Virus record (IMG/VR): IMGVR_UViG_3300033145_000740
Coordinates: 1 to 20,981 of that record
Source of the DNA: a virus
Direction: 5' to 3' (one strand)
DNA: 20,981 nt
Part shown: positions 2,444 through 20,531 of the stretch, piece after piece
Position numbering within the stretch: the stretch's first letter is position 1
How the letters are laid out: every line of letters starts with the position of its first letter
Made by a program: the position numbers and the translations under genes
Notes under the pieces: model-generated
The model's database searches: none
Seen by the model: the letters and a program-made list of their open reading frames with translations, nothing else
What the model was told of the DNA's origin: nothing

Positions 2444-3097
2444 GTGTACCGAATAGTATCATTTGGGACAGCCCATCCTCACCAATATAGAAAGGGGATA
2501 GCAGGGACGAAAAAGAAATGCCGAGCCCTCAGCCTGCCTTATCATATGGAATTGATAGATCCAACTCTTTTCCAATTCCGAGGATGGTATGGGGGAGTCT
2601 TGTACAAGCCAACCTTTATTAAGAAGATGTTGCATGGGTACGATCAGCCTATTGTTTATCTTGATGCCGATTGCGAAGTGGTAAGCGAGTTCACCTTGCC
2701 TGAGGGGGATTGGGACATAGGTATGTTGCCCCATCAGATATTGAGGAACAGAATACATTTCGATCCTTGGGTTTCTTCTTTATTGGCATTTAGACCAACA
2801 GATCGTGCAAAGCGCCTATTAGATATGTGGGAGCGTCTATGTCAATGGGGAGGCTTGAGAGAGTCAGATCACGAAAGACTTACATGGATACTTTCTATCA
2901 TGGAGGACGAAATAAGGATACAGAACCTGCTCCCCAATCTCCGAGAAAAGATTTACCTTGATCCGAGACACAGAAAAAGATGTAAGTACAGTTATGAGGA
3001 AATCCCAAAGGAGTTAGACAATTGGAATCCCCCTAAGAAGGAACTGCCAGAAGATAAACGTCAAGAGATTATGGAGCGTGTAAGAGGTGTGTTATGA
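2444..3097 (+). CDS. GT-A fold glycosyltransferase, phage-encoded
   Basis: 217 residues from a GTG at 2444, with GGGAGAT just upstream. The key signature is PIVYLDADCEVV, with D74-A75-D76 as the DxD motif that binds the metal and nucleotide sugar in GT-A transferases. Before it lies a helix with KPTFIKKML, typical of the stretch preceding DxD. After it come FDPWVSSLLAFRPTDRAKRLLDMWERLC (the region that reads as nSGv..f..t..a..ll..W in nucleotide-diphospho-sugar transferases) and a SDHERL box (141-146), the sD...L motif. There is no signal peptide or membrane segment, so it should act in the cytoplasm. It sits inside the packaging module, overlapping the next gene by ATGA, so it would be made late with the virion proteins. 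The acceptor is unknown. Ser/Thr-rich tails on virion proteins, DNA bases or cell-wall sugars are options; the tails are the most visible candidate in this window. Confidence 0.75.
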   Translation: MYRIVSFGTAHPHQYRKGIAGTKKKCRALSLPYHMELIDPTLFQFRGWYGGVLYKPTFIKKMLHGYDQPIVYLDADCEVVSEFTLPEGDWDIGMLPHQILRNRIHFDPWVSSLLAFRPTDRAKRLLDMWERLCQWGGLRESDHERLTWILSIMEDEIRIQNLLPNLREKIYLDPRHRKRCKYSYEEIPKELDNWNPPKKELPEDKRQEIMERVRGVL

Positions 3098-3528
3098 GAA
3101 ACAGACCCCTTGATTTAGGGAAAATGGTACGAACTATCGAAATGGATGATTCTGTTCTGGAGTTCTTAACTGTCCCGACTACTCGAAATGCTTTGGAATT
3201 TAGCATTGATCGTTTTAAAGAGATGGTCAAGAAACAACGGAAAAAGCTTTCGTTGAAGTATCACCCAGATATAGGAGGGAATCCTGAGCGAATGAAAGAG
3301 ATTAATGGTGCTTGCGACCTGCTGTTGAAGCTTCAGCTCCCCTCTCCATCAAGACGAAGTCCACCCCCGAGACCTCCTTGGGGCGAGGGTATTCCTAAAC
3401 CTCCTGCTGGGACTTGGCGTTTTTCGTCACCAAGACGAAGTCCACCCCCGAGACCTCCTTGGGGCGCTGGGACTTGTCATTTTTCATTTACTTTTATGAC
3501 ACATACCACCACTGAGAGCACCAACTAA
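3094..3528 (+). CDS. J-domain (DnaJ-like) protein with Pro/Arg-rich repeat tail
   Basis: 144 residues; ATGA overlap with the glycosyltransferase gene and AGAGGTG upstream. Residues 34-80 form a short J domain: helix with FKEMVKKQRKKLSLKY, the invariant HPD (57-59), then GGNPERMKEINGACDLL. J domains stimulate Hsp70 ATPases, so the protein may recruit host DnaK to virion assembly or to terminase. The J domain is preceded by about 30 residues and followed by a tail in which SPRRSPPPRPPWG occurs twice (about 86-97 and 112-124). That tail is encoded by two identical 36-bp DNA repeats (described separately). The final residues (MTHTTTESTN) are Thr-rich. The C-terminal part looks inserted rather than conserved. 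The gene overlaps the large terminase start by TAATG. Confidence 0.7.
   Translation: MRNRPLDLGKMVRTIEMDDSVLEFLTVPTTRNALEFSIDRFKEMVKKQRKKLSLKYHPDIGGNPERMKEINGACDLLLKLQLPSPSRRSPPPRPPWGEGIPKPPAGTWRFSSPRRSPPPRPPWGAGTCHFSFTFMTHTTTESTN
3350..3475 (+). repeat. Two 36-bp hairpin-forming direct repeats inside the J-domain gene
   Basis: Positions 3350-3385 and 3431-3466 are identical over 36 bp, with an 81-bp period (27 codons, frame kept). In each copy AAGTCC (3357-3362; 3438-3443) can pair with a later GGACTT (3410-3415; 3470-3475). In the second copy CCCC (3445-3449) can also pair with GGGG (3461-3464). The GC-rich inverted structure, unlike the surrounding sequence, resembles a REP/BIME or other small mobile hairpin that has inserted in frame and duplicated. 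Confidence 0.75.
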
Positions 3529-7533: not shown

Positions 7534-8487
7534 ATGACTACTCTTAAGGATGCCCCAGAATTAAGAACAACGGATGCCACTGTTACATTGATTAAAGCGG
7601 AGACAGACAAGATTGATGGAGCTGCGATAGATGGTCTTTTAGGCGTTGAGGGTTCATTAGGTTTTAAAGTCCATGAAATTGAAATACATTTCCATAATCG
7701 GGATTTTTGGCTTGGTGAGCATGAGTCAAGAAGTTTGGAGGACAGTTGTGGCCAAATTGACACTATGGCTCCTTTTCAAACGGATGCTGGGAATGGAACA
7801 GTTGATGACTATACTCCAGGATGGGGAGCGGCTTTGTGTGTTGTAGGAAGGGATGATCTTCCGATAACCTCAGATGGAGTTATGTATGGGGCGCATAAAA
7901 TAGTTGTGGTTGATGTAGAATCCACAGCGGATCTCAAACTACATAAAGTGCAGGTTGTATATGGAAGAGGAACTTTTGCAGAGGCCTTAGCGGATCAGCA
8001 ATATTCGGATGTTCCCCCTTTTATTCCATTAAGAGGGGCAGCATTTTCGGTGGTAGAATTTAGAATTCCTTCCAAATTGTGTGGGGCAGATAAAGTTTGG
8101 GTCAGGCATTGGGTTGATGGAATAAATACTGGGACTATGGATTTCTTTATTGGTATCTATGAACATCCACAGTTTGCTACAGCTATTCCAACGACCACAA
8201 CGACCACAACGACCACAACGACCACAACGAGTTCGACCACAAGTTCAACCAGTTCGACTGCTTCGACTACATCAAGTACGAGTTCAACCAGTTCGACAGC
8301 TTCAACCACAAGTTCAACCAGCTCGACAGCTTCAACCACAAGTTCAACCAGCTCGACTGCTTCAACCACAAGTTCAACCAGTTCGACTGCTTCAACCACA
8401 AGTTCAACCAGTTCGACTGCTTCGACTACATCAAGTACGAGTTCAACGGCATCAACAACCAGTACGACAACAACAGGACCACCATAA
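7534..8487 (+). CDS. Head-fibre-like virion protein with 98-residue Thr/Ser tail
   Basis: 317 residues; GGAGAGGG lies 9 bp upstream of ATG 7534. Residues 1-219 look folded: a short helical start, then beta-rich sequence (EIEIHFHNRDFWLGE, HKIVVVDVE, LHKVQVVYGRG, AAFSVVEFRIP, KVWVRHWVDGINTGTMDFFIGIYEH). They match nothing I can name. From residue 220 the chain is only Thr, Ser and Ala up to a GPP end: thirteen Thr, then repeats of the ten-residue unit SSTSSTASTT. The order folded domain then long extended tail, in the head cluster, suits a surface appendage or receptor-interacting fibre of the capsid, but this is inference. The tail is the longest of the five in the window. Next gene starts 17 bp downstream. 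Confidence 0.7.
   Translation: MTTLKDAPELRTTDATVTLIKAETDKIDGAAIDGLLGVEGSLGFKVHEIEIHFHNRDFWLGEHESRSLEDSCGQIDTMAPFQTDAGNGTVDDYTPGWGAALCVVGRDDLPITSDGVMYGAHKIVVVDVESTADLKLHKVQVVYGRGTFAEALADQQYSDVPPFIPLRGAAFSVVEFRIPSKLCGADKVWVRHWVDGINTGTMDFFIGIYEHPQFATAIPTTTTTTTTTTTTTSSTTSSTSSTASTTSSTSSTSSTASTTSSTSSTASTTSSTSSTASTTSSTSSTASTTSSTSSTASTTSSTSSTASTTSTTTTGPP
8191..8484 (+). repeat. Thr/Ser tail DNA with 30-bp minisatellite
   Basis: 294 bp coding for 98 residues. The first part is tandem 9-mers of ACGACCACA type (poly-Thr). Then 30-bp units (SSTSSTASTT) run back to back at 8281, 8311, 8341, 8371 and 8401, with a diverged unit at 8431 and a related one at 8242-8271. Neighbouring units differ by one or a few mostly silent bases. 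All lengths are multiples of three. Such tandem units are prone to expansion and contraction by slippage. Confidence 0.9.
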
Positions 8488-8503
8488 ACTAAGTGAGGAC
8501 AAA

Positions 8504-9697
8504 ATGCCTGAGAAGCACAAATTACCGAAGGGAGCGTTAAGATTAGTAGCAGAAGACTGTCATGCCCACATTGAGATGGCAGAGGTGGATGGAGAGAAAA
8601 TCCCTAAACTCAAAATGACTGTTTATAGTGGTAAACCTATTAACAGACATTGGTACTGGGGGAAGTTGGCGATTGATTTAGAAGGCATCAAGTTTGACAG
8701 GAGCAAATACCCTGTACTTGAAGGTCATTGTACAACCCAAAAAATTGCTTTTTCCCGCAAACCTCTAATAAATGGGGGGGTGGTTTTAGATCCTGGTACT
8801 ACGGTGTTTGTGAGTACTAAAGCCAGTGAGGAGTTTCAGAAGCTTGCTCAGGAGGGTTTTCCCTATCAGGCAAGTATTTATGCTATCCCCTCAGTGGTTG
8901 AGCGTGTGGAACCGGATGCCACAGTGGAGGTTAATGGATATAAATTGAAAGGACCCGCGGTAGTTTGGCGTGAGTGTCTTTATCAAGAAGCATCTATTTG
9001 TGTTTTTGGTTGGGACAAAAAGACGGAAGCCGCTGTCTTCTCCAAAGAGGAGGTAGAGCTTAATATGCAGTACATTGATAATAAAGGAGGTGATGCAGGC
9101 GAAAATGAGCAATCCAAACCTAAACTTAAACTTAGAGGCAATGAAGGAGGTGAAACAACCATGCCAAAGACTTTAGCAGAATTACAGGAAAAGTATCCCG
9201 ATTTGACCAAGCAGTTGTCAGATGGGGTTACGGCAGACCTGCAGACTACTTTTGACAAGGAGAAAACGGCTATGCAGGCCCAGATCACCCAACTCTCTAC
9301 GGAGAGGGATGATCAGGAGGCCAGAGTACTTTCCCTTGAAAAGAAGGATACGCTTCGTTCCGAAAAGGAGCTTACCCTGACCGCTGATCGAGTCTGGAAC
9401 GAGAAACTCGCCGCCAGCAACGTGGCTGAGCACCTGTTCGATAAGGTTAAAAAGCACGTTGTTCACGTCAAGTTTGTGAAAGATGGCGTTCTCGACCACA
9501 CCAAGTTTGGCGAGGCAATCGATGCTGAAATCACTGACTGGGAAAGTCGGGGAGCAACGTCCACCGTTCTCGGTGCCGGGTTCAGCAAGCCCACTCGGGA
9601 CGATGAGTTTAATAAGGCCTCCGTCCAGGAAAAAGCGGACGATGACATGGCCGACGAACTCCTGCAATTTGCGGGACAGGAACAAAAAACTGCATAA
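8504..9697 (+). CDS. Prohead protease-scaffold fusion
   Basis: 397 residues from ATG 8504, with GAGGAC 4 bp upstream. The N-terminal domain (1-185) reads as a phage maturation serine protease. YPVLEGHCTTQKIAFS carries the likely catalytic His75 and FPYQASIYAIPSVVERV the likely nucleophile Ser124, followed by EASICVFGWDKKTEAAVFS, the usual end of the core. Residues 220-397 are a scaffold: a helix-rich segment with coiled-coil character (LTKQLSDGVTADL ... AQITQLSTERDDQEARVLSLEKKD) and a polar tail. This is the Mu I/Z and lambda C/Nu3 plan, in which the protease is made both alone-fused and as separate scaffold from an internal start (see nested gene). It acts inside the prohead, cleaving scaffold and then itself. 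I did not identify the third catalytic residue with confidence. Confidence 0.72.
   Translation: MPEKHKLPKGALRLVAEDCHAHIEMAEVDGEKIPKLKMTVYSGKPINRHWYWGKLAIDLEGIKFDRSKYPVLEGHCTTQKIAFSRKPLINGGVVLDPGTTVFVSTKASEEFQKLAQEGFPYQASIYAIPSVVERVEPDATVEVNGYKLKGPAVVWRECLYQEASICVFGWDKKTEAAVFSKEEVELNMQYIDNKGGDAGENEQSKPKLKLRGNEGGETTMPKTLAELQEKYPDLTKQLSDGVTADLQTTFDKEKTAMQAQITQLSTERDDQEARVLSLEKKDTLRSEKELTLTADRVWNEKLAASNVAEHLFDKVKKHVVHVKFVKDGVLDHTKFGEAIDAEITDWESRGATSTVLGAGFSKPTRDDEFNKASVQEKADDDMADELLQFAGQEQKTA
9161..9697 (+). CDS. Nested in-frame scaffolding protein start
   Basis: An in-frame ATG at 9161 (Met220 of the protease-scaffold) is preceded at 7 bp by AAGGAGGTGA (9144-9153), a full match to the 16S anti-Shine-Dalgarno, the best possible signal in the middle of an ORF. 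It would give a 178-residue coiled-coil scaffold protein lacking the protease. Scaffold is needed in far larger amounts than protease, which explains an internal start stronger than that of the outer gene. The same strategy is known for lambda C/Nu3 and Mu I/Z. Confidence 0.78.
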   Translation: MPKTLAELQEKYPDLTKQLSDGVTADLQTTFDKEKTAMQAQITQLSTERDDQEARVLSLEKKDTLRSEKELTLTADRVWNEKLAASNVAEHLFDKVKKHVVHVKFVKDGVLDHTKFGEAIDAEITDWESRGATSTVLGAGFSKPTRDDEFNKASVQEKADDDMADELLQFAGQEQKTA

Positions 9698-9713
9698 AGG
9701 AGGTGAATAGTCC

Positions 9714-10418
9714 ATGCAAACATTACAACGTGGAGGGGACATTCCCCATATAATTGGGAGTGTCCAAAAAGATTACAAGCGGTTGTACTTCTCCGATCCC
9801 ACCGCCGCATTAAAAGTGCCCATTACTTTACAAGCTGGCTATGGCATCCTTGAGCAGGGCACAGCACTTTCCAAGAACATCTCGGCTGGTACTGCTGGGG
9901 GTAAGGATAAGCTGCTTCCTTACAATCCCACGATCTTTGATGGGACGGAGAACAGCCCAGGCAGGGCCTATCTTGTGGGTGGTGGTACTAATGCCACTTA
10001 TACTGTCCATGTGACTATTGATGATAGTTACAAATTCAATGTGGGGGATGATATTTTCATCAATGATAATACCACTGCCGCAGAGAATCTGGGAGCGATC
10101 ACAGGGATTGATAGGACAACCTATGCCAACTTTGCTGTTATCACGTTTACTACGGTGATCGGTGGTACGACTTTCACCCTGGCACGATTTGCTTATGTGG
10201 CTGTCGAAGCCGGCGCCGCCAATAACTACGCGGATTGTGTAGGTATCCTTGAGAAGACGGTCCAGACCGGCGTCGGTGAAAATGCTAAGGGTGCCGTTGC
10301 GACAATAATTCTCGGCAATTGTGTGCTGTACGAAGGTCTTTTAACCAATTTCGATGCTGCCGCAAAAGCCGATCTTTCAACTGCCACGTCTTTTGGGCAG
10401 TTCGTATATATTCGATAG
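9714..10418 (+). CDS. Capsid decoration protein, gpD-like, with inserted beta domain
   Basis: 234 residues with a strong AAAGGAGGTGA ribosome site before ATG 9714. Decoration proteins cap capsid trimers after expansion. The outer parts fit the lambda gpD / HK97-like decoration plan: KVPITLQAGYGILEQGTALSKN near residues 34-55 and, at the end, VGILEKTVQTGVGENAKGAVATIILGNCVLYEGLL (about 176-210). Between them lies an additional domain of about 80 residues (roughly 85-165) with VHVTIDDSYKFNVGDDIFINDNTTAAENLGAITGID. It makes the protein twice the length of gpD and resembles the insert in the major capsid protein. There is no Thr/Ser tail on this protein, unlike its neighbours. Confidence 0.65.
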   Translation: MQTLQRGGDIPHIIGSVQKDYKRLYFSDPTAALKVPITLQAGYGILEQGTALSKNISAGTAGGKDKLLPYNPTIFDGTENSPGRAYLVGGGTNATYTVHVTIDDSYKFNVGDDIFINDNTTAAENLGAITGIDRTTYANFAVITFTTVIGGTTFTLARFAYVAVEAGAANNYADCVGILEKTVQTGVGENAKGAVATIILGNCVLYEGLLTNFDAAAKADLSTATSFGQFVYIR

Positions 10419-10436
10419 AAGGGAGGTGAAACTGAT

Positions 10437-11765
10437 ATGCCAAGAGGATCAAGCGATATACCCGAATTAAGATTAGAAGTTCTTCAGAAGTTTGTAACCA
10501 GATTCACGGCACCACCGAATCTGATTCTGATGAACTTGTTTCCCTCCACTACTTCTCCATCAAGTACAGTTCGATGGGAAAGTCAGCGTGGTGGCAGAGG
10601 GCTCACACCCTTTGTCCCGCCCGGAGCACCTGCGCATGTGACGGCACCCCACGGGGTTGCCCAGCACCTTGCGGAAGCTGCTTACTGGAAGGAAAAAATG
10701 CCGTTCGATGAGGAATTCCTTAATAACCTTAGGAAAGAGGGCACGGTGGCCCAGTATATGTCGGCAAAGCAACGCCTGGCAAGAGAACTGAGTTATTTGA
10801 GGAATCGTTCAAATCGTCGGATCGAATGGATGTTCACCAAGATGTTGTTTACCGGCTCCTTTGACTATAAGGTTAAAGGTGGTTATATGGCAACGGTTGA
10901 TTATAGCATCCCTACAGATCACAATGTAACCTTGGGTTCTGCTTATAACTGGTACGATGGAGCAAGCAGGAATATTATCCAAGATATCCGGGACGGCAAA
11001 CGAAAGATCAAAGAGAACTGTGGTGGTACAGTCAACATGGCCATCTGCAACTCGAAGGTCTTGACTTATCTGGCCGATGACACCACGATCCGCCAACTCT
11101 TGCAAAAGAACATGTTTGGCAAGGGTGATTTATTCAGTGGTTCCAAAGACAAGCTGGCTATGATCAACCCGAAAGTGGTTGCTGGTATTTTGGACATTGA
11201 TAATCTTATCGTTTATGATGAGATGTACGAAGTCAAGGCCTGGTTGACAGCGGCAGTTACAGGTGCTTCCAGTACCTGGATCTCGGTAGACGATGCAAGC
11301 GATTTTGAAGCCAAAGGCATGCTCCGCTTCTGGGATCAAAGTGCCGGCACCTACGAGGATCGGCAGATTCTTTCCGTTGATCACTTTGGTGGCCGTGTTC
11401 AAGTCCATACCCCACCCGCCGCCTCGTATAAGGCCGCAGAGGACTACGTCACTATGGCGAAGTACTTTGTACCGGATGATAAGTTTGTCATGCTTGCCAC
11501 TACGGTGGAGGGACAAGCGATTGCCGAGTACAAACAGGCACCTTTCGGTTTAGGTCGCCATTTTGGGCAATACACTGACAAGCACGATGACTGGGACCCG
11601 GAAGTAACGTGGATTCGTGTACAGGATAAGGGCTTGCCTATTCTGTATCAAAGGGATGCTCTTTACATCCTTGACGTGAGGATTACCCCAGGTGATGTGT
11701 TAACCACGACCACATCGACCACAACGACCACATCGAGCACAACAACAACCACAACTACTGCGTAA
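10437..11765 (+). CDS. Major capsid protein, lambda gpE-like, with Thr-rich tail
   Basis: 442 residues; GGGAGGTGAA lies just upstream of ATG 10437. The call rests on its position after protease, scaffold and decoration genes and on gpE-like features: an N-terminal arm ending in ESQRGGRGLTPFVPPGAPAH, a helical spine with AEAAYWKEKMPFDEEFL and AKQRLARELSYLRNRSNRRIEWMFTKMLFTG, and a C-terminal region with WDPEVTWIRVQDKGLPILYQRDALYILDV. Residues about 268-340 look like an inserted small beta domain (WISVDDASDFEAKGMLRFWDQ ... RQILSVDHFGGRVQVHTPP). The last 20 residues are Thr/Ser ending in Ala. Being present in hundreds of copies, this tail would dominate the virion surface if exposed. Confidence 0.78.
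   Translation: MPRGSSDIPELRLEVLQKFVTRFTAPPNLILMNLFPSTTSPSSTVRWESQRGGRGLTPFVPPGAPAHVTAPHGVAQHLAEAAYWKEKMPFDEEFLNNLRKEGTVAQYMSAKQRLARELSYLRNRSNRRIEWMFTKMLFTGSFDYKVKGGYMATVDYSIPTDHNVTLGSAYNWYDGASRNIIQDIRDGKRKIKENCGGTVNMAICNSKVLTYLADDTTIRQLLQKNMFGKGDLFSGSKDKLAMINPKVVAGILDIDNLIVYDEMYEVKAWLTAAVTGASSTWISVDDASDFEAKGMLRFWDQSAGTYEDRQILSVDHFGGRVQVHTPPAASYKAAEDYVTMAKYFVPDDKFVMLATTVEGQAIAEYKQAPFGLGRHFGQYTDKHDDWDPEVTWIRVQDKGLPILYQRDALYILDVRITPGDVLTTTTSTTTTTSSTTTTTTTA
11703..11762 (+). repeat. Thr/Ser tail of the major capsid protein
   Basis: 60 bp coding for 20 residues, TTTTSTTTTTSSTTTTTTTA. Built from ACC, ACA and ACG codons with TCG/AGC for Ser, like the other tails. Directly follows the predicted last strand of the capsid fold. 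Confidence 0.9.
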
Positions 11766-11788
11766 AAGCAGGGGAGTGTACAGCCATT

Positions 11789-12139
11789 ATGGAAACGATA
11801 ACTAAAGTACAATTGCATGCCACTTTAAAATGCGGTGGCAAAGTCTGGGAGGCGGGTGTATATAATGCACCCGTTCCCCCAGACCTAATAGCCGAGGCCC
11901 GAGCCAAAAACCGAGCGAGATCGGGTGTTATAATGGTAGAAATTCTTGAAACTAAAGTCTCAAAGGTAGTTCCTATCCGCTCACCGGAAGCTTCCACATC
12001 AGTATCAAGTGTGACAACTTCTAATTTGAGAGAAGGTCCTATGTATGCGGCTGAAAAAAAAGTGGAGGTCCCCCCTTCTACGAAGTTGAGAAAGAAGAGG
12101 GCTCCAAAACAAAAACTTAAATTAGTATTAAGGGGATAG
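11789..12139 (+). CDS. Small head-region protein of unknown function
   Basis: 116 residues; GGGGAG about 14 bp upstream of ATG 11789. Residues 1-50 (VQLHATLKCGGKVWEAGVYNAPVPPDLIAEARAKN) resemble the short beta/helix module K-V-x-G-x-x-Y-x-x-G-x-x-x-x-x-P-x-x-[LI]-x-x-x-x found in small phage proteins encoded between capsid and head-tail connector. After residue 60 the chain is Ser/Thr-containing, then very basic (KLRKKRAPKQKLKLVLRG). The basic end might touch DNA at the neck; this is a guess. Coupled within 1 bp to the next gene. Confidence 0.5.
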   Translation: METITKVQLHATLKCGGKVWEAGVYNAPVPPDLIAEARAKNRARSGVIMVEILETKVSKVVPIRSPEASTSVSSVTTSNLREGPMYAAEKKVEVPPSTKLRKKRAPKQKLKLVLRG

Positions 12140-12142
12140 TTG

Positions 12143-12601
12143 GTGACTACTCAAGCTGAAATGATTGTTTTAATGAAGGCTGAGGTAAAGGGATTGACCT
12201 CTTACCTTGACGATGTTGATTACACCAATGCAACGAATGACGCCGCTGGGGAAACGGGGTGGGCATTCCCTGTAACTGATAACTTCAAAATCTACTGGAT
12301 GAAGCAGAGGTCGAAAAGACACCTTTACGAATATCTCCTAACTGAAAGTGCCCATAAGTTTAAGTATGAACAAATCAACTTACAACACCGCTTTGAGCAT
12401 TACAGTAAGCTGATTAAGCGTATGGATGAGGACTTCGTAAACATCCAGGAAGCAAGACCTGATCAATTTGCTGATGTTGCTGCTTCCAGATTATTCGGTA
12501 CTAAGGTTGATGCAGGCTTTGCTTATGTGCCACAAACTGGACAGGACATCACTTACGTTGATGACCAACTGGTAGAATTTGGGCCCAAGGAATCCGAGTA
12601 G
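12143..12601 (+). CDS. Putative head-tail connector protein
   Basis: 152 residues. I prefer the GTG at 12143 over the TTG at 12140, because AGGGGAT (12131-12137) then sits at a better distance. Mostly helical, with a Trp/Tyr-rich middle (DNFKIYWMKQRSKRHLYEYLLTESAHKFKYEQINLQHRFEHYSKLIKRMDEDF). Position after the capsid gene and size suit an adaptor of the gp6/gpW type that docks on the portal, but I see no diagnostic motif. It lacks a Thr/Ser tail. Confidence 0.5.
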   Translation: MTTQAEMIVLMKAEVKGLTSYLDDVDYTNATNDAAGETGWAFPVTDNFKIYWMKQRSKRHLYEYLLTESAHKFKYEQINLQHRFEHYSKLIKRMDEDFVNIQEARPDQFADVAASRLFGTKVDAGFAYVPQTGQDITYVDDQLVEFGPKESE

Positions 12602-12656
12602 GGCGATAGTTTGAGAGAACCCAACATGAGAGAGCCTAAGAGGCTGAAAGAACAAA

Positions 12657-13379
12657 ATGACAATTGGCCCCGATATCCGAGAAGCAATTGTTGAGGTTGG
12701 TTCAGCGATAACGATATTGAGAGCCGCAGGAAACGTAACAGGGGAATATTTAAAATATAAATTAAATTCACAGGTAACAAAGCCTTTTATTCAAGAGTTC
12801 TTTCTTGAGGCTGATATTCCTTATGATACAGTCGTTGCGGTAGGCGATGTCGTACAGATTAATGTTACCACCATTAAGTATTTGGTAATGAATCTGTTGG
12901 CAGAGATGTTTGAGAACGAGGTTATTAAATATAATGCCGTTCTTTACAAGTGCAATGTTGTAGTAGACCTCAAAAGACCCTCCGAAGATGATTGGGATGA
13001 TTCCCAACTCTACCACCGTCAAACCTCTTGGACTACTTATGGTAGTGATGTTAATGCTCTCATCACCACCCCTCTCTATGGACACGACCTTGTAACCGAT
13101 GAAGAATTGGGCATGCTGGGTTTGGAAAGACATGAGATGTATGTTGCAACTGCGGAAGGTGTTGAGCAGTTGGATAGGGTTAGGGTTTCTGCACATGAGT
13201 ATTATCGTGTGGAGACCGTTAAGAAACGCCGATATTCTGCTGTAGACGTTTTGGAAATAGGGGAGGATACAAGAAGTGCGACCACTACCACGACAAGCAC
13301 GACCACGAGTTCGACAACGACAACTACGACAACCACGACAACATCATCGTCCACAACAACGACCACTACAACGCCGTAG
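12657..13379 (+). CDS. Neck protein with Thr/Ser tail
   Basis: 240 residues from ATG 12657; the ribosome site is weak (AAGAGG about 13 bp upstream). Residues 1-205 mix helix and strand (FIQEFFLEADIPYDTVVAVGDVVQINVTTIKYLVMNLLAEMFENEVIKYNAVLYKCNVVVDLKR). Position between connector and tail-completion genes suits a neck stopper or adaptor. The VGDVV then LYKCNVVVDLKR pattern recalls small beta-barrel neck proteins. Family not recognised. The chain ends in 32 Thr/Ser residues closing with Pro. The DNA coding that tail is also open in the +1 frame and leads into a zinc-ribbon ORF (see 13276). Confidence 0.55.
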   Translation: MTIGPDIREAIVEVGSAITILRAAGNVTGEYLKYKLNSQVTKPFIQEFFLEADIPYDTVVAVGDVVQINVTTIKYLVMNLLAEMFENEVIKYNAVLYKCNVVVDLKRPSEDDWDDSQLYHRQTSWTTYGSDVNALITTPLYGHDLVTDEELGMLGLERHEMYVATAEGVEQLDRVRVSAHEYYRVETVKKRRYSAVDVLEIGEDTRSATTTTTSTTTSSTTTTTTTTTTSSSTTTTTTTP

Positions 13380-13500
13380 GACGGTTCAGTTTAAATGTGG
13401 TTGCACGACTGAGTACCCGTGGGCATATAGAACCTGTCCCGTTCACCATAGAGACATTGTGACTCAATACAATCCCGTGGATTCGAGGCATTTGATATGA
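13276..13500 (+). CDS. Zinc-ribbon small protein overlapping the Thr tail in +1 frame
   Basis: 74 residues from a GTG at 13276, preceded 8 bp upstream by GGGGAGGA (13260-13267). The first 35 residues come from the same DNA as the Thr/Ser tail of the neck protein, read one base over, and are Arg/Gln/Pro-rich. The rest (FKCGCTTEYPWAYRTCPVHHRDIV) has a CxC-x(10)-CPVH pattern, typical of the small zinc ribbons found in phage operons. The stop overlaps the next start by ATGA. No ATG, GTG or TTG lies in frame between the tail and the first Cys, so the ribbon is reached only from this GTG, by a +1 shift from the neck gene, or by a rare start codon. The ribbon is likely real; the start is uncertain. 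Confidence 0.5.
   Translation: MRPLPRQARPRVRQRQLRQPRQHHRPQQRPLQRRRTVQFKCGCTTEYPWAYRTCPVHHRDIVTQYNPVDSRHLI
13281..13376 (+). repeat. Thr/Ser tail of the neck protein
   Basis: 96 bp coding for 32 residues: Thr runs of 5, 3, 10 and 7 separated by one to three Ser and closing with Pro. The +1 frame across it is open and used by the putative zinc-ribbon gene. Confidence 0.88.
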
Positions 13501-14060
13501 TGATACCAGTGATCAAGTTTTATGATTTGGATTATAGAAGGCACAGATCAGCCTTAAAGAGAATCCTTCGGGTATCTGGTATCAGGATGAATAGGATCCA
13601 ACAAAAAATGGCTATCGATTATAAACATTTGGTTACTCGTAATATAATGACCCAAAAATTCGCAGGGGGATATGCTCCCTACAACACACGATACCAAAAA
13701 TGGAAAGAACAATTTGCAGCTACTACTGGTTATCATGTTCTTAAAGGGGATGCTGTTAAAGCAATTACTGTTACGAAGGTAAGAGTGTATAAATGGAAGA
13801 GTATTTGGTTTAGTGGTATTCCCTCAGGAGTAAAAGATACTGGAGGCAAATCATGGTTATACCCATTAGGTAGTTCAAAGGGCAAACGAAAGAGCATTGC
13901 CATGTATATGTATGTTAGTGAGTATGGTGGTAATTATGGTCGTGGGGGGAAGCATCCTAAGAGACCTGTGTTTGGGCCTTCAATGATTGAATATTCAAGA
14001 AGGGGACAGAAAAAAAGAGGTGCTGAATATCTTAAAAACGTACAAGGAGCTTGGAAATGA
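13497..14060 (+). CDS. Tail completion protein, gpZ / HK97 gp10-like
   Basis: 187 residues; ATGA overlap with the zinc-ribbon ORF, GAGG 8 bp upstream. Very basic. Features of the neck/tail-completion family are a helical N-terminus, the stretch PYNTRYQKWKEQFAATTGYHVLKGDAVKAIT (a Y..W....G...L..tG.l..si pattern as in Mu gpG and lambda gpZ-like proteins), then YVSEYGGNYGRGGKHPKRPVFGPSMIEY, whose hPxRPvfGPs matches the common end of HK97 gp10-type proteins. The role would be joining the finished tail to the head. No Thr tail. Confidence 0.6.
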   Translation: MMIPVIKFYDLDYRRHRSALKRILRVSGIRMNRIQQKMAIDYKHLVTRNIMTQKFAGGYAPYNTRYQKWKEQFAATTGYHVLKGDAVKAITVTKVRVYKWKSIWFSGIPSGVKDTGGKSWLYPLGSSKGKRKSIAMYMYVSEYGGNYGRGGKHPKRPVFGPSMIEYSRRGQKKRGAEYLKNVQGAWK

Positions 14061-14272
14061 AAGTCTTAGGTATAGAACCGAGAGATGTTTATTTGATTTT
14101 TGAAATGAGCCACGCTCAAATAGAGCTTACCCTCGACTTTCTTGATAAATGTACTATAGAGTATGATAGTGAGCAGGAACCGAAGCTTGCTGAAGCGGTT
14201 TCCTACGTTAAAAATGATTTCTTTACAGTTTTGAATCAAGTTTCTGAAGATATGAAGCAAGGGGGCAAATAA
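14057..14272 (+). CDS. Small acidic helical protein, unknown
   Basis: 71 residues. The ATG at 14057 overlaps the preceding stop (ATGA) and lies 7 bp after AAGGAG; an in-frame TTG at 14051 would add two residues and is less likely. Acidic and mostly helical (EMSHAQIELTLDFLDKCTIEYDSEQEPKLAEAVSYVKNDFFTVLNQVSEDM). Such short genes between gpZ and gpU homologues are common, often with unknown role. It could be a chaperone for the basic neighbour. The stop overlaps the next start (TAATG). Confidence 0.6.
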   Translation: MKVLGIEPRDVYLIFEMSHAQIELTLDFLDKCTIEYDSEQEPKLAEAVSYVKNDFFTVLNQVSEDMKQGGK

Positions 14273-14742
14273 TGGCTTTAGATAATACTGCCAGACTTGC
14301 CAATTTCAGAGATAGTATCAAGAAGTACTTTGTGGATAATCTAAAGATTACGGAGAAGGTGCCTTTAACTTTTGATAAAGGACTATCCAAACCAGACATA
14401 AAGAATAGAAGTGTAGCAAGGTGGGTAGCAATCAATTGGGGACCTGTTAATTTTGGTATGATGTCGGAGGCTATGATTGATGTTAGTTGCTGTACAAGGA
14501 AAGATAATGAGGGATTTAAACTTGCTCAATTACATGATCTGGTAATGGGATATTTGGCAGATTCTTCTGGTTCAGATGGAGCGAGGAGGATTCCTTTTTA
14601 TCGAAGTCATAAAACTGAAACTTGGACAAACATAGGTGGTATTGTTATTCAGAATATAATACCATCAGCATCTTTGGAAGCGGCTGATGAAACTAAATTT
14701 ATAACTTTAACTTGTATATTGAGGTTTGCGAGCAAACTATGA
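14272..14742 (+). CDS. Tail terminator protein, gpU-like
   Basis: 156 residues; AAGGGGGC upstream, TAATG coupling. Tail terminators cap the tube when it reaches the length set by the tape measure. Seen are an N-terminal helix (LANFRDSIKKYFVDNLKI), the alternation VARWVAINWGPVNFGMMSEAMIDVSCCTRKDNEGFKLAQLHDLVMGYL (strand, strand with sxxxxV.c.tR.d..g, then long helix), and a final strand ETKFITLTCILRFAS. This is the alpha/beta layout of gpU-like proteins that form hexameric rings. Position right before the tail tube gene agrees. Confidence 0.6.
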   Translation: MALDNTARLANFRDSIKKYFVDNLKITEKVPLTFDKGLSKPDIKNRSVARWVAINWGPVNFGMMSEAMIDVSCCTRKDNEGFKLAQLHDLVMGYLADSSGSDGARRIPFYRSHKTETWTNIGGIVIQNIIPSASLEAADETKFITLTCILRFASKL

Positions 14743-14999
14743 AAAGAGGTAAGCTATATTGGTGTGAGAAATGCAGGAGGCCTTTATTGGAACGTTTGCC
14801 TAATGGTTTGTGGAGATTCAAATTTGGTCGAAAGAATAAGAGGGATACTGAAGGAAAAGAGGTTACGGATTGGGCTGTGGATATGTATGTACATGGCTCA
14901 GTAAAAATACGGTGTTTTAGAAATGGATGTTTACATTGGAACATTTTCAATTTCTTTCCACCGGCAGAAGGAACTAAATCATTATTAGAAGGGAGGTGA
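14739..14999 (+). CDS. Four-cysteine zinc-ribbon protein
   Basis: 86 residues from ATG 14739, overlapping the tail terminator stop by ATGA. An upstream in-frame TTG at 14712 would add nine residues but overlaps the previous gene more. Two knuckles are visible: C9-x2-C12 (YWCEKC) and C59-x4-C64 (RCFRNGC). A Trp/Lys-rich loop between them could wrap a zinc ion. It recalls short zinc-finger proteins such as Mu Com, which controls translation of a downstream gene, but no specific link is visible. Precedes the highly expressed tail tube gene by 4 bp. Confidence 0.65.
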   Translation: MKRGKLYWCEKCRRPLLERLPNGLWRFKFGRKNKRDTEGKEVTDWAVDMYVHGSVKIRCFRNGCLHWNIFNFFPPAEGTKSLLEGR

Positions 15000-15003
15000 A
15001 ACT

Positions 15004-15687
15004 ATGTCAAGAACAGGACCTTTAACTAAGGATACTACCACAGTAGCATTGGGACTTGCCCAGATCAGAATCGGACTTGCTTCAACGTACATCGGACAGA
15101 GAAGGCCCATCCTTACCGCTGCCAACTCGGTCGGTGCTCTGGCTGATACTAAGGTTGTTGGTAATGTTGATTTCTTCAAATTGGAATCAGGGTTCCCTTT
15201 ACAGGAAGATGCTATCTTCCCTTTGAGGGAGGCGATTGCTCTGGAGTTGTCTTTTAAAGAGATCACTCCAGCTAATGTGGCTTTGGCTCGGGGACTTAAT
15301 CCAGCGGATTATCCCAATGTCCATACAGGGGAAATCCCCTTAGGTACTATGGCCACTCCAACATTCCTGCGTTTGGAAGCGATTTACACATATCCTGATG
15401 GAGTTAATACGATGAAGATCGTCTTCCCCAGGATGCAGGTTGCAGCCAGTCTGGAAATGGATTTCCAAATGGAAGATGTTTTAGCTGTGCCCATTGTGTG
15501 TGAATCTAAAAGGGCGGACGGCGCTATCTCTGGTGGTCATGCTATCTGGAATGGTGCTCCGTTGGGTCTCATTCTTTGGGATGATGCCACACAGACCACC
15601 ACGACCACCACGACCACAACGACCACAACGACCACAACGACCACAACGAGTTCAACCACAAGCTCGACCACGACCACAGCGCCATAA
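15004..15687 (+). CDS. Major tail tube protein with Thr/Ser tail
   Basis: 227 residues; a strong GGGAGGTGAA site lies just before ATG 15004. Tube proteins stack as hexamers around the tape measure. Residues 1-195 show a beta-rich fold with the stretch VGNVDFFKLESGFPLQEDAIFPLREAIALELSFKEITPANVALARG, a pattern typical of tail tube proteins in which the beta hairpin loop is followed by a helix. TFLRLEAIYTYPDGVNTMKIVFPRMQVAASLEMDFQMEDVLAVPIVCES supplies the closing strands. Gene order (after terminator, before chaperone and tape measure) agrees. It ends in 30 residues of Thr/Ser closing with AP, which would project from each subunit along the tail if outward facing. Confidence 0.78.
   Translation: MSRTGPLTKDTTTVALGLAQIRIGLASTYIGQRRPILTAANSVGALADTKVVGNVDFFKLESGFPLQEDAIFPLREAIALELSFKEITPANVALARGLNPADYPNVHTGEIPLGTMATPTFLRLEAIYTYPDGVNTMKIVFPRMQVAASLEMDFQMEDVLAVPIVCESKRADGAISGGHAIWNGAPLGLILWDDATQTTTTTTTTTTTTTTTTTTSSTTSSTTTTAP
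15595..15684 (+). repeat. Thr/Ser tail of the tail tube protein
   Basis: 90 bp coding for 30 residues: 18 Thr, then SSTTSSTTTTAP. Positions 15638-15677 are identical over 40 bp to 20446-20485 in the gpM-like gene. Confidence 0.9.
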
Positions 15688-15723
15688 CGGTGATGTTTAC
15701 AGCCTTTTAAAGGAGATAATAAT

Positions 15724-16221
15724 ATGTCTGATGATAAAAGACTCAATCCGCAGATTACGGAGACGGACGTTGGTGTTCGTAATCTGCGGAAAATTACAAT
15801 ATACCCATTAGCTTTAGGTGATGAGATAAAGCTCACCGAAACTCTTTCCCAAGCCATCTCCACCTATTTTGAAAGTGTGAAAACTATTGAGGGCATAAGT
15901 GACGTTGCCCTCATAGGTTTTGTTGTGGATTTAATCAAGGGAAATTTTAAGGAGATCATCGGTTTCGTTGTAGATGAGGGTATAGATGTTAGAGAACTGA
16001 TGGGAGATATCACTAACTTTCAGGTGGCGGGCATTGCTCGAATCATGTATGAAAAGAATTTTGAGGAAGCCGCAAAAAACGCAGGGGGCCTGTCCGAGAT
16101 AGTGAAGAAACTATTTCTCTCGGAGAGGCCGTTTCCACAGTCTGCGAGCGATACGGATATTCCCATACTACCTTCTACCGAACCCCTTTCAGAAGAGGAG
16201 GTATCACCCGAGGAGAGTTAG
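15724..16221 (+). CDS. Tail assembly chaperone, gpG-like
   Basis: 165 residues; AAAGGAGAT upstream of ATG 15724. Lies between tail tube and tape measure, the invariable place of tail assembly chaperones. It has the expected make-up: an N-terminal strand region (RKITIYPLALGDEIKLTETLSQAISTYF), a helical middle (ALIGFVVDLIKGNFKEIIGFVVDEGIDVRELMGD), and a disordered acidic end (STEPLSEEEVSPEES). It coats the tape measure before tube polymerisation and is not in the virion. Codons 118-119 (AAA AAC) form a slippery site that can divert ribosomes into the -1 frame (next entries). Confidence 0.78.
   Translation: MSDDKRLNPQITETDVGVRNLRKITIYPLALGDEIKLTETLSQAISTYFESVKTIEGISDVALIGFVVDLIKGNFKEIIGFVVDEGIDVRELMGDITNFQVAGIARIMYEKNFEEAAKNAGGLSEIVKKLFLSERPFPQSASDTDIPILPSTEPLSEEEVSPEES
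16074..16080 (+). promoter_or_regulatory. Programmed -1 frameshift site A AAA AAC
   Basis: In the chaperone frame the bases read gcA AAA AAC, a canonical X XXY YYZ heptamer. The -1 frame has a TGA at 16062-16064 and is then open from 16065 to 16457, so any shift must occur after 16064 and before the chaperone stop at 16221. This heptamer is the best slippery site in that interval. A weaker A GGG GGC follows at 16083-16089. Confidence 0.8.
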
Positions 16222-16457
16222 AGGTTCTATACAAGCATACCCAACAGAGAATGTTGGAGCGCCTGAAGTTTCAAGCAAGAGTGCAAGGTGCAGAGATTGA
16301 GGATGATGATTCTCCGAAAGGGAAGAAAGAGGAGTCGGTGGGAAGTGTTATGTTATTTAAAGACCCTAAAGAGTATGAACATCTCTCTAAGGGGGAAAAG
16401 AAAGAACTGACAGAGAAAATGAAAGGTTTACATCGACAAAACGTAAAGATAGGATAA
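16080..16457 (+). CDS. -1 frame extension of the chaperone (gpGT-like fusion)
   Basis: Read in the -1 frame after the slippery site, this adds about 125 residues to the first 119 of the chaperone, giving a product near 244 residues. The extension looks like real protein: ETISLGEAVSTVCERYGYS, then FRRGGITRGELEVLYKHTQQRM, then a charged helical end (KDPKEYEHLSKGEKKELTEKMKGLHRQNVKIG). The stop lies 1 bp before the tape measure ATG. In lambda and many other siphophages such a fusion is made at a few percent and links tape measure to tail tube. There is no ribosome site at the ATG at 16251, so independent translation is unlikely. Confidence 0.8.
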   Translation, partial: RRGPVRDSEETISLGEAVSTVCERYGYSHTTFYRTPFRRGGITRGELEVLYKHTQQRMLERLKFQARVQGAEIEDDDSPKGKKEESVGSVMLFKDPKEYEHLSKGEKKELTEKMKGLHRQNVKIG

Positions 16458-16458
16458 A

Positions 16459-19400
16459 ATGTCACAACAAACACTTTCATTAGGTACTATATTTACAGGT
16501 CGTGTTGATGCCAAGTTTAGAGTGGCTGTCGCCAGTTTAGATAGGTCGTTAGTTGCTCTGAACACTTTGATGGGCAAGACGACCAAAGCCACAACGGCGG
16601 CGGCTGCGGCATCTACCCGAGTGGGAACAGCACAAACGAAAGCGGCTGCAGGAGCTAAGAAGCACACGAAAGCCTTGCACCCAATGAACAAACAGATTGC
16701 TAAAGTTCATGGGGCAATGGAACGCTTCAAAGCGGCTCTTAAAGTGACTGCCGCTTATGGTGCCGCTGCAACAGGAATCTTTTTGATTGTTGATGCACTT
16801 AAAGCTGGCACGATGGAGATAATCAACTTTGATCAAGCTCTCCGAAACCTTGAAGCCATCACAAGAGCCCTCCCAGAAGAAATAGTCATCATGTCTGATA
16901 GAATGATAGAAGTGGCTAAGACAACGAAGTTCTCCACTACGGAAATAGCGGAAGGGATGGTATTGTTAGGTCAGGCTGGTTTTAGTGCGGCTGAAGGCAT
17001 CAATGCCATACAAGCAGTTGCGGACCTTGCTTCTGGTACTCTGACTGATATGAAGTCCACTGCCGATCTTGTGACAAGTGCGCTCAGGGCATTTCAATTG
17101 GATTCTATTGAGGCGGGCAGAACGGCTGATGTCTTTGCAAATGCCATCAATAAATCCAAACTAACTATGGATAAAATTCGTACCTCTTTTAATTATATAG
17201 GTGCGGCGGCTTATCAGGTGGGACTATCGATTGAGGAAACTGCTGCTACCATGATGCTCCTTGCTAATAATGGTTTGCGAGCAAGTACAATAGGTACTGG
17301 TTTTAGGCAAGTGTTGTCTCGAATGATCGCTCCCAGCAGAAAATTGAAGGAGGCTTTTAAAGATTATGGTATAGAAATTGATTCGATTAATCCTAAGACT
17401 CAGGGTTATACAGTAGCTATGGAAAACTTATCTCAGGTAATTACAGAGGCAGATGGTATTACGGTTGACATGGCAAAGACTTTCAGTTTGTTTGGTCTGC
17501 GTGGTGCTCAGGCGGCGGCTGTAATAGCAGATGGGTTTTTAAGTAATAAATTCAAAGACGCTTTAAAGAAGGTCCACGAAGTGGGATCCGCAGAGAAAAT
17601 GGCTGCTATTCAAGCAAAGGGCTTGTGGTTTCAATTTAAGAATCTGGCAGATAGAGCAGGTGCTCTTGCCATAGCCCTTGGGGAGGCGGGAGTTAAAGGT
17701 ATATTACAAGCCTTAGTTATAACTTTAAGAACAACGGTTATACTTATAACCAAACTTGTGGAGGATCCTTTATCTCAGGTTATAATAAAGTTTGGTTTAT
17801 GGACTACTGCTACATTACTATTGGTCAAAGCTTTGAGTATTCTCACTGTAATCCTACCTGTGGTTTTAAAGTTTCTTGGGGGGATAGCTCTTTCTTTATA
17901 TGCAACTCCCTGGGCAGCTATTGCTATAGCTATTACTGGAGTTGTTATTGCTTATAAACATTTTGACCAGATACTGACTAAAAACGTTGAGAAACTCAAA
18001 CAACAAATTGCCGTAATGGATGGTAATATCCATTCTTTAAAAGCATATAAAGGAGCATTGCAATCTACCTTTGATGAAATGAAAGAGGGCGATGAACTTT
18101 CTGAAAAACACCTTTCTACTTTGGAGAGATTGAAGAAAGCACATCCAGAACTTGCTGAAATGATCGACAGTACGGTAAAATCGTATGAAGGGTACAATAA
18201 AATTTTGAAGGAGGTCAATAAACAGCAAGAGGTTCAGGAGAGGGCGCGAATACTGAAACTGTTGGAGTTATTGGCCCTTGAAGCAACGTGGATTGATCGT
18301 GCGGGGAAGAAAGTCGTTGCGGCAAGGAAGAGAGCCGTTGTGGCACAGGCCAAAGTGGAAGGAGGTGCTGTTGGCCAAGGTCCAGCAACCCAGGCAAAAA
18401 TGTTAGCAAGGATGGTGACCGATGCCGAGAAAATTTTAGCAGGAGCAGAAGAAGAACGAGCCAAATCTGTGGCAAAGCTTACTACTCTCCTTTATGCCAG
18501 GGCCCAAGCCCATGAAAATGTTGTGGAATCTGGTGAACGCTGGATTACAGTAATACAAAAAATAGGTAAATTTACTGATAAAGAAATAGCCACGATCCGA
18601 TCTGTATTAATACCAGAACTTGAAAGACTCGCCAAAGCCCGAGCTAAAGCCACAGGTAAAAGGGAAGTAAAAGAAAGTATGAAGGCACAGAAAGCAAGCC
18701 TTAAATTTCAACGGAGATATTTAGAAGCAATGGCGAGGATGGAGGGAGACCAGACTGGGAAATTATTGTTGGAACATAAGGCAAGGCTTTTAAGCCATGA
18801 ACAGTCTGCCAATGAACAGATTGAATTAGCAGGTAAGAATGAGGATAAATTAAATGAAATAAGAGCCAGAAAAAGAGAGTTGGATGATCAGAGTCTTAAA
18901 TTTTATAAGAAGAAATTGTTGGATAGGACATTTGATTTTGCCAAACAAGAAGCGGATTTAGAGAAAAAACAAACAATGCTCATTCTGGAGGAGAAAAAGC
19001 AAAGGGCTGTACTTGAAGGGCAAAGCACCAAAGAAATAGATAAACTAATCCGCCAAGAGAAGATAGCCTCATTGAGAGATGCTTTAGCACAGGAGAAGGA
19101 GTATTTTAAACTTGTAACTAAATTCTCTGATAAAAGAACCATAGAGGTAATAGATGCGGAGAAGAGGTTGACAGATGCACAAAGGGCTTTAAGTGTTGCT
19201 GTTACTGCGGATTTGGTGAGGGATGCTAAAGAAAGGGAGGATGAACAGGTTCGCAGTTTGAAGGCCCAACTCAAATTGGTTACTGAGTTTTCAGATGAGT
19301 GGTTGACTATTCAAGGGGAGCTGTATGATAAGGGTAAATTATCCGCTGTTGCCTACCATGAGGCAATCAACCAAAATATGATTAGGCAGATGTCTTGGTG

Positions 19401-20022
19401 GGAACGCCTTAGGCACGGAATGGATGAGGCAAAGACAAAAGGAACTGCATTTAAGGATACTTGGATAGAAATTGGTAAATCAATATCGGGCGCAATAGCT
19501 GACAATATGACTACTTCCTTATTGGACTTTGCGAAAGGCACTAAGACTGCCAAAGATGCCTTCCAAGATTTTGCTCAGTCCACCATTGATTGGCTTTTTA
19601 AAATGATCGTAAGGCAGCAAATCTATAATGCTCTTATAGGAGCGACTACTTCGTGGATCGGCACACCAGCCCCTGTAGGTGAAACAAGACCTCATGGCAG
19701 TGTGCAGGTTCCCCATTCTGGGGGAGTGCTTGGTCAAGATGCTATCCCTAAAAGATACCATGTTGGTGGAATAGTCAGACAAAACGAAGTCCCAATCATA
19801 GCTGAAAAAGGCGAGGGTGTCTTCACAAAAGGACAGATGAAAGCAATGGGAGGCCCTCAAAATATAACTGTGAAACTTGTCAATAAATCGGATAAAGAAC
19901 TGAAGGCGACTCAAAGCGGTGCTCAATTTGATATGGGACAACTGATCTTGAATGTAGTTCTTGAAGGGACATCAAGAAACAAAGGTGGTTTTAGAGATGG
20001 TATGAAAGGAGCTTTAAGTTAA
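16459..20022 (+). CDS. Tail tape measure protein
   Basis: 1187 residues; AGGAT upstream of ATG 16459. Sets tail length and is ejected ahead of DNA. The N-terminal 100 residues are helical and Ala/Lys-rich. Residues about 115-355 form the TP901-type minor-tail core, with TTKFSTTEIAEGMVLLGQAGFSAAEGI, ALRAFQLDSIEAGRTADVFANAINKSKLTMD and ASTIGTGFRQVLSRMIAPSRKL. Residues about 440-497 are strongly hydrophobic with two or three membrane-like segments, consistent with a role in membrane passage. About 590-940 is charged coiled coil. The end (about 1065-1132) has the Gly-rich VGGIVRQNEVPIIAEKGEGVFTKGQMKAMGG motif common in tape measures. By the usual 0.15 nm per residue, the tail would be near 180 nm. 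No Thr tail. TAATG overlap with the next gene. Confidence 0.92.
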   Translation: MSQQTLSLGTIFTGRVDAKFRVAVASLDRSLVALNTLMGKTTKATTAAAAASTRVGTAQTKAAAGAKKHTKALHPMNKQIAKVHGAMERFKAALKVTAAYGAAATGIFLIVDALKAGTMEIINFDQALRNLEAITRALPEEIVIMSDRMIEVAKTTKFSTTEIAEGMVLLGQAGFSAAEGINAIQAVADLASGTLTDMKSTADLVTSALRAFQLDSIEAGRTADVFANAINKSKLTMDKIRTSFNYIGAAAYQVGLSIEETAATMMLLANNGLRASTIGTGFRQVLSRMIAPSRKLKEAFKDYGIEIDSINPKTQGYTVAMENLSQVITEADGITVDMAKTFSLFGLRGAQAAAVIADGFLSNKFKDALKKVHEVGSAEKMAAIQAKGLWFQFKNLADRAGALAIALGEAGVKGILQALVITLRTTVILITKLVEDPLSQVIIKFGLWTTATLLLVKALSILTVILPVVLKFLGGIALSLYATPWAAIAIAITGVVIAYKHFDQILTKNVEKLKQQIAVMDGNIHSLKAYKGALQSTFDEMKEGDELSEKHLSTLERLKKAHPELAEMIDSTVKSYEGYNKILKEVNKQQEVQERARILKLLELLALEATWIDRAGKKVVAARKRAVVAQAKVEGGAVGQGPATQAKMLARMVTDAEKILAGAEEERAKSVAKLTTLLYARAQAHENVVESGERWITVIQKIGKFTDKEIATIRSVLIPELERLAKARAKATGKREVKESMKAQKASLKFQRRYLEAMARMEGDQTGKLLLEHKARLLSHEQSANEQIELAGKNEDKLNEIRARKRELDDQSLKFYKKKLLDRTFDFAKQEADLEKKQTMLILEEKKQRAVLEGQSTKEIDKLIRQEKIASLRDALAQEKEYFKLVTKFSDKRTIEVIDAEKRLTDAQRALSVAVTADLVRDAKEREDEQVRSLKAQLKLVTEFSDEWLTIQGELYDKGKLSAVAYHEAINQNMIRQMSWWERLRHGMDEAKTKGTAFKDTWIEIGKSISGAIADNMTTSLLDFAKGTKTAKDAFQDFAQSTIDWLFKMIVRQQIYNALIGATTSWIGTPAPVGETRPHGSVQVPHSGGVLGQDAIPKRYHVGGIVRQNEVPIIAEKGEGVFTKGQMKAMGGPQNITVKLVNKSDKELKATQSGAQFDMGQLILNVVLEGTSRNKGGFRDGMKGALS

Positions 20023-20531
20023 TGGCTACTTTTCCATTAGTGAGTAATAATTCAAAAACATCTGATTGGGAGGTATTTAAAGAGGTCAGAGCAAAACCTC
20101 AGATCAGAACTCCCTTTGAGGGTGGTGCGGTTCAGTCAAGGGCAAGAGTAACCACTGCCCGTTGGAAGTTTCAAGTGGGTTTTATCAAAATGACTACTGC
20201 TAATTATAATACGTTGGTTGCTTTCTTTGATACTAATCAGGGAAGTACTTTTACATTTGTTCATCCTATTAAGGGAACTTCTCATACTGTTAGGTTCTCT
20301 GAAGATGAATTACCGGAAGCAGATCCTGTAGGTACGGGAGACGATGCTCGGTGGAACATTGAAGGCATCAATTTGGAGGAGACGGCAGGCTCGACTGTGA
20401 CAGTGGCGACTACTACAACCAGTACCACGACCACATCGACCACATCGACCACAACGAGTTCAACCACAAGCTCGACCACGACCACTACGACCACAACGAC
20501 CACAACAACAACCACAACAACGAGCCCATAA
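20022..20531 (+). CDS. Tail tip protein, gpM-like, with Thr/Ser tail
   Basis: 169 residues; AAAGGAGC upstream of ATG 20022. Follows the tape measure as gpM does in lambda. Residues 1-128 carry the expected pattern R..TPFEGG.VQSRARVTTARWKFQVGFIKMTTANYNTLVAFFDTNQGSTFTFVHP, in which a strand, then a short helix with L..FF, then G..F.f.hP matches minor tail proteins M and related tip hub proteins. The last 40 residues are Thr/Ser ending in SP, the second longest tail in the window. TAATG coupling to the following gene. Confidence 0.7.
   Translation: MATFPLVSNNSKTSDWEVFKEVRAKPQIRTPFEGGAVQSRARVTTARWKFQVGFIKMTTANYNTLVAFFDTNQGSTFTFVHPIKGTSHTVRFSEDELPEADPVGTGDDARWNIEGINLEETAGSTVTVATTTTSTTTTSTTSTTTSSTTSSTTTTTTTTTTTTTTTTSP
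20409..20528 (+). repeat. Thr/Ser tail of the gpM-like tip protein
   Basis: 120 bp coding for 40 residues (four Thr, Ser, four Thr, mixed STT blocks, then 16 Thr and SP). Shares a 40-bp identical block (20446-20485) with the tail tube gene tail. Confidence 0.9.

Follow-up and report, generated by a model that had tools for sequence, protein, structure and literature searches.

Why would several virion proteins of a single phage end in long runs of threonine and serine, and what might such ends be for? The question is raised by IMG/VR record IMGVR_UViG_3300033145_000740, a linear virus record of 20,981 bp that was analysed over its full length and is referred to here as the window. Five of its ORFs carry an in-frame Thr/Ser tail at their extreme C-terminus (Table 1). 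Translation bore out the coordinates, lengths and endings that the original prediction had given for all five tails.

Table 1. Tailed proteins of the window, their Thr/Ser tails and a candidate glycosyltransferase.
Feature	Position	Strand	Basis and remarks
Candidate GT-A glycosyltransferase	2444..3097	+	motif YLDADCEVV, DxD-like; between conserved ORF230 (1742-2434) and terminase
Protein between portal and protease, putative 'head-fibre-like'	7534..8487	+	gene order; relatives in L007 and L008 only
98-residue Thr/Ser/Ala repeat tail of the portal-protease-interval protein, ends ..TTTTGPP	8191..8484	+	30-bp tandem repeat
Major capsid protein (MCP), Phage_cap_E family, with C-terminal Thr/Ser tail	10437..11765	+	PF03864, phrog_29; tail state traced over 85 MCPs
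MCP tail, 20 residues Thr/Ser, ends ..TTA	11703..11762	+	added at the point where tail-less relatives stop
Neck/connector-position protein	12657..13379	+	identity by gene order only; conserved in relatives
Neck tail, 32 residues Thr/Ser, ends ..TTP	13281..13376	+	translation
Major tail (tube) protein	15004..15687	+	relatives match phrog_476 / phrog_117 / phrog_885
Tail tube tail, 30 residues Thr/Ser, ends ..TAP	15595..15684	+	translation
DUF2460-like tail-tip protein	20022..20531	+	weak PF09343 and phrog_1302 matches
Tip protein tail, 40 residues Thr/Ser, ends ..TSP	20409..20528	+	translation

Identity, conservation and exposure of the tailed proteins

The names originally given to the tailed proteins held to different degrees. 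That of the capsid protein was confirmed (PF03864, E = 1.3e-31; phrog_29, E = 6e-44), and the tail tube label is supported through relatives matching 'major tail protein' families (best E = 3.7e-5). The tip protein is a weaker case, with a match to DUF2460 below the curated cut-off (E = 2.4e-6) and a weak one to the distal tail family phrog_1302 (E = 0.002). Searches of Pfam and PHROG gave no informative family match for the putative neck and head fibre proteins, which are named from gene order. On the neck tail, the mucin-like glycoprotein family PF01456 scored 16.0 bits against a cut-off of 34.7, a match of composition. In the two loci with relatives of the portal-protease-interval protein, the equivalent tails measure 97 aa (L007) and 21 aa (L008). 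A further locus (L023) has a tailed ORF after the tape measure protein (19678-20112), which shows no BLAST similarity to the window tip protein. Two other loci encode, after the neck gene, a 730-residue protein (L019, 5327-7519; L020, 6573-8765) with an internal, near-pure Thr/Ser domain of ~570 residues.

With the capsid protein as query, IMG/VR yielded 24 relatives (57-87% identity), all 24 with a tail at the exact MCP C-terminus, and a profile scan widened the set to more than 80 loci. Among these relatives, tails were present at the C-terminus of 69 of 84 closed MCP ORFs, 53 of 65 neck proteins and 36 of 38 tube proteins. Nine other late proteins of the relatives were never tailed: portals (0/58), proteases (0/26), decoration proteins (0/86), gp153 (0/73), gpZ (0/50), gpU (0/45), chaperones (0/33), tape measures (0/23) and terminases (0/43). 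The proposed selectivity of the tails and their place on structural proteins are supported.

Of the 12 tail-less neck loci, 11 also lack the MCP tail, and the twelfth (L045) appears truncated. In loci without tails, the MCP stops directly at the end of its folded domain (..ILDVN). A maximum-likelihood tree of 85 MCPs placed the 70 tailed rows in one clade (support 100/99), with a single change of state. A second scan added further tail-less relatives, none of which had tails on the MCP, the neck protein or, where it was recognised, the tube protein. In ten tail-less relatives (31-90 kb each), no ORF at all had a Thr/Ser tail. Within the window's own clade, nearly all tested relatives are tailed on MCP, neck and tube. 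Rather than varying randomly and being mostly absent, the tails are, on the evidence of these sequences, a conserved trait of a phage family and not a product of chance.

The tails had also been expected to lie exposed on the particle. As the AlphaFold model of the window tube protein has a pLDDT of 34, exposure of its C-terminus is argued from homologues of another tube family. Homology of this second, independent family of tailed tubes to the YSD1_22 and chi tubes (E = 1e-26) extends to residue 258 of a 381-residue chain. The tail of the family begins about where the solved YSD1 and chi proteins go on into an Ig-like domain at their C-terminus. In a tube homologue from Klebsiella phage Soft, Big_1 was found at residues 296-378, within the C-terminal extension that is missing from the tailed tubes, and a family search found no Ig family domain in the tailed proteins. 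The C-terminal extension of the YSD1 and T5 tubes protrudes on the outside of the tube (PMC8718954). By analogy, the tails of the independent tube family would start at the position of the outer Ig-like domain, which argues, for the tube, in favour of the outward exposure originally proposed; no tail was placed inside the particle.

A glycan cassette in tailed relatives

The window ends before the position at which its relatives carry a cassette of glycan enzymes and holds only one motif-level glycosyltransferase (GT) candidate, so the cassette is known from relatives. Large contigs of tailed relatives were collected, gene families were built and nine long tailed genomes were compared. All nine encode a GT-A enzyme in a late-strand cassette, and GT2, GT-B, GT4 and methyltransferase genes were each found in eight of the nine. 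Some tailed genomes have additional GTs, methyltransferases and sulfotransferases in the cassette, and its members matched Pfam models for GT2, GT4/GT1, methyltransferase and Sulfotransfer_2. Given the methyltransferases and sulfotransferases, the glycans may be capped or charged. GT4 is present in the nearest long relative of the window (G008, MCP 71% identical), and three partial contigs (G005, G006 and G013) have tails without GT genes. None of the four cassette GT families was found in ten tail-less contigs (four long, six partial), and an HMM re-test agreed.

One of the tailed genomes, G015, has two sulfotransferase-like genes within the cassette (L136), the first matching PF03567 (53767-54396) and the second recognised by motif only (56115-56828), which suggests sulfated glycans. 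The same genome contains QueD-, QueE- and FolE-like genes (L134, 17200-19459), which suggests that the DNA of some of these phages carries 7-deazaguanine modification. The tail-less contigs have enzymes of their own: all ten encode a 687-aa GT-like protein, often with another GT2 near the capsid gene, and a ~160-aa protein directly after the MCP (for example G028, 75615-79598; L194). The 687-aa and ~160-aa proteins may represent an alternative way of virion modification.

The window's own GT-A candidate had no match in Pfam, PHROG, NCBIfam or the PDB. We rejected it as a shared enzyme: it is absent from the records of 25 relatives, no cassette HMM matched it and its sole weak relative sits on a contig without GT4. 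Just upstream of the terminase gene, the window has a small ORF (3094-3528, + strand) with a J-domain-like HPD motif (LKYHPDIGGNPERM). At positions 100-157, an 18-bp repeat (TGAATGAGGTTCATTAAA) occurs three times and is possibly an operator or iteron.

Enzyme-first and tail-first searches in unrelated phages

Because the association between tails and cassette inside the window's clade reflects one phylogenetic transition only, independent tests were run that started either from the enzymes or from the tails. For the enzyme-first test, IMG/VR was scanned with GT-A and GT4 profiles and 32 contigs were checked, 30 of which lack a homologue of the window capsid protein. In a whole-contig analysis that included the window clade, Thr/Ser tails were found on 22 of 23 GT4-bearing contigs. 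The exception, G048, has GT4 as its only cassette GT, no tails and a tail-sheath-like protein. Tails without GT4 were found on G017, but GT-A and GT2 are present there. The tail carriers in the unrelated phages include phrog_807 and Phage_tube_2 tail tubes, a head-tail adaptor Ad1 (phrog_477) and a head protein (phrog_687). Two tailed contigs have only cassette genes in common with G015, six ORFs in G043 and five in G060, so the cassette appears to move between phages independently and to be accompanied by the tails.

The tail-first test was a scan, blind to enzymes, for a DNA pattern of 14 Thr/Ser codons followed by one codon and a stop. Real Thr/Ser-rich tails were present in 19 contigs among the pattern hits. 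When contigs of 20 kb or more were compared, seven of the nine with tails carried GT4, against none of the 26 remaining pattern hits (Fisher p = 5e-6). In 97 of 101 cases, a Thr/Ser-bearing protein and GT4 shared a coding strand, and the two were often neighbours. Generic GT2 (PF00535), considered as an alternative tail marker, was not significantly discriminating (p = 0.10).

GT4 is the cassette enzyme tied most tightly to the tails, and we regard it as a candidate for an early step. It matched the Pfam models Glyco_transf_4, just above the cut-off (E = 1e-6), and Glycos_transf_1 (E = 2e-5), and its profile had no match among PDB sequences. Its AF2 model (pLDDT 84.5) has a GT-B fold and is closest, among the Foldseek matches listed, to the GT4 enzymes MshA and BshA (E = 1e-12). 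No GT4 was found in cultured phages (tblastn against INPHARED). The only cultured phage with a GT2_f33-like enzyme is Tunturiibacter phage Tunturi_4 (E = 3e-21), which has no Thr/Ser tails. A search for hosts returned matches to loose metagenome-assembled genome (MAG) contigs only, and none of 148 genomes from the phylum to which a Melioribacter MAG belongs contained GT4.

Taken beyond the window's clade, we lean with some reserve towards a transferable mucin system. Glycan enzymes would pass between phages with unrelated virion proteins, and Thr/Ser acceptor tails would arise on the resident capsid, connector and tail-tube proteins. The outcome in a broad group of uncultivated siphophage-like phages would be extended mucin-like coats that may be sulfated and methylated.

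Possible functions of the tails and comparison with known systems

We consider it likely that the tails are acceptors of O-glycans added by phage enzymes, making a mucin-like coat. Phage glycosyltransferases expressed from late genes would attach and extend sugars on the capsid, neck, tail-tube and tip tails in the infected cell, with GT4 putatively catalysing an early step. In some relatives, these sugars would probably be methylated or sulfated. The finished particle would then be covered, from head to tail, by a hydrated and mucin-like brush of glycans, and this coat may shield the virion or tune its contact with host surface polymers.

The original prediction had envisaged a hydrated coat of bare tails. 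The linked glycosyltransferase cassette had been missed, and it points to glycosylation. We think it unlikely that the tails act by themselves as disordered hydrophilic brushes free of modification, serving as an entropic coat or for weak adhesion to host polymers, while the cassette has another purpose. Without charge, Thr/Ser stretches should adopt an extended, soluble form, and the three partial contigs with tails and no GT genes would agree with bare brushes. Yet these would leave the specific association with GT4 in unrelated phages unexplained, cassette GTs are present in all long tailed genomes of the clade, and the strong preference of the tails for hydroxyl residues with little charge is a need of O-glycan acceptors that a generic linker would not have. 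The cassette GTs could also act on other substrates. DNA and O-antigen are well-known targets of phage GTs. Remodelling of the host surface or of phage DNA, with tails and cassette co-occurring only through a common kind of host or habitat, would accord with the QueD/QueE/FolE-like genes in some genomes. However, tailed and tail-less relatives were found in the same IMG samples (L009 and L077 in 3300009529; L064 and L082 in 3300017963), the tail-less relatives have a different set of GTs, and the cassette is encoded on the late strand, in many cases next to Thr/Ser-bearing tail genes, all of which makes this explanation quite improbable.

The tails might, finally, be neutral microsatellite expansions produced by slippage, which we find barely credible. 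Tandem repeats of 9 bp and 30 bp do occur within several window tails, and tail lengths vary widely. Nevertheless, all four Thr codons are used in the tails, as are both the TCN and AGY boxes for Ser. This diversity indicates that the amino acids are maintained and the DNA repeat is not, and it rules out a microsatellite origin as the main cause. The position, frame and choice of genes are moreover conserved throughout the clade, and sister phages have no tails at all. Slippage would account for changes in tail length only.

Apart from a few mycobacteriophages, phages are usually regarded as having unglycosylated virions. O-glycosylated tails, the reading that we prefer, point to a widespread and probably independent route to a glycan-coated phage particle, and Thr/Ser tails together with one GT4 family provide a simple signature for finding such phages in metagenomes. 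If true, this would bear on phage diffusion, sticking to polymers and escape from recognition, and the cassette supplies named enzymes that are open to testing.

Several known systems resemble this one in part. In serine-rich repeat adhesins, a Ser/Thr low-complexity protein is O-glycosylated in the cytoplasm by GT4-family GtfA/GtfB, after which further GTs act. Those adhesins are bacterial surface proteins exported by accessory Sec, whereas the tails here are on virion proteins, and neither GtfA nor GtfB was among the 50 best Foldseek matches listed for the phage GT4. The Ig-like domains of phage tail tubes (lambda gpV, T5 pb6 and YSD1_22) are likewise a C-terminal add-on outside the tube. 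Unlike them, the add-on described here is low-complexity Thr/Ser and not a folded domain, and it is accompanied by glycosyltransferases.

No account of Thr/Ser tails combined with phage glycosyltransferases came up in our search of the literature. The original statement that no system of this kind had been named was nonetheless too strong, as mycobacteriophages provide a known case of C-terminal virion glycosylation, with glycans reportedly attached to capsid and tail tube. Theirs is the closest known case. As there, candidate acceptor residues lie at the C-terminus of MCP and tail tube in the phages studied here, and glycosyltransferases are phage-encoded, with four families in the relatives and a single motif-level candidate in the window. 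One account describes glycans on the capsid proteins of mycobacteriophages Che8 and Rita, together with phage-encoded glycosyltransferases (PMC11256854). The MCP and tail protein of Che8 end in the short sequences ..NKTGS and ..YSDGS, compared with Thr/Ser tails of 15-100 residues here, and Che8 GTs 108-110 do not match the cassette HMMs (best E = 0.038). Further differences from Che8 are the presence of tails on connector, tip and fibre proteins as well and the larger size of the cassette.
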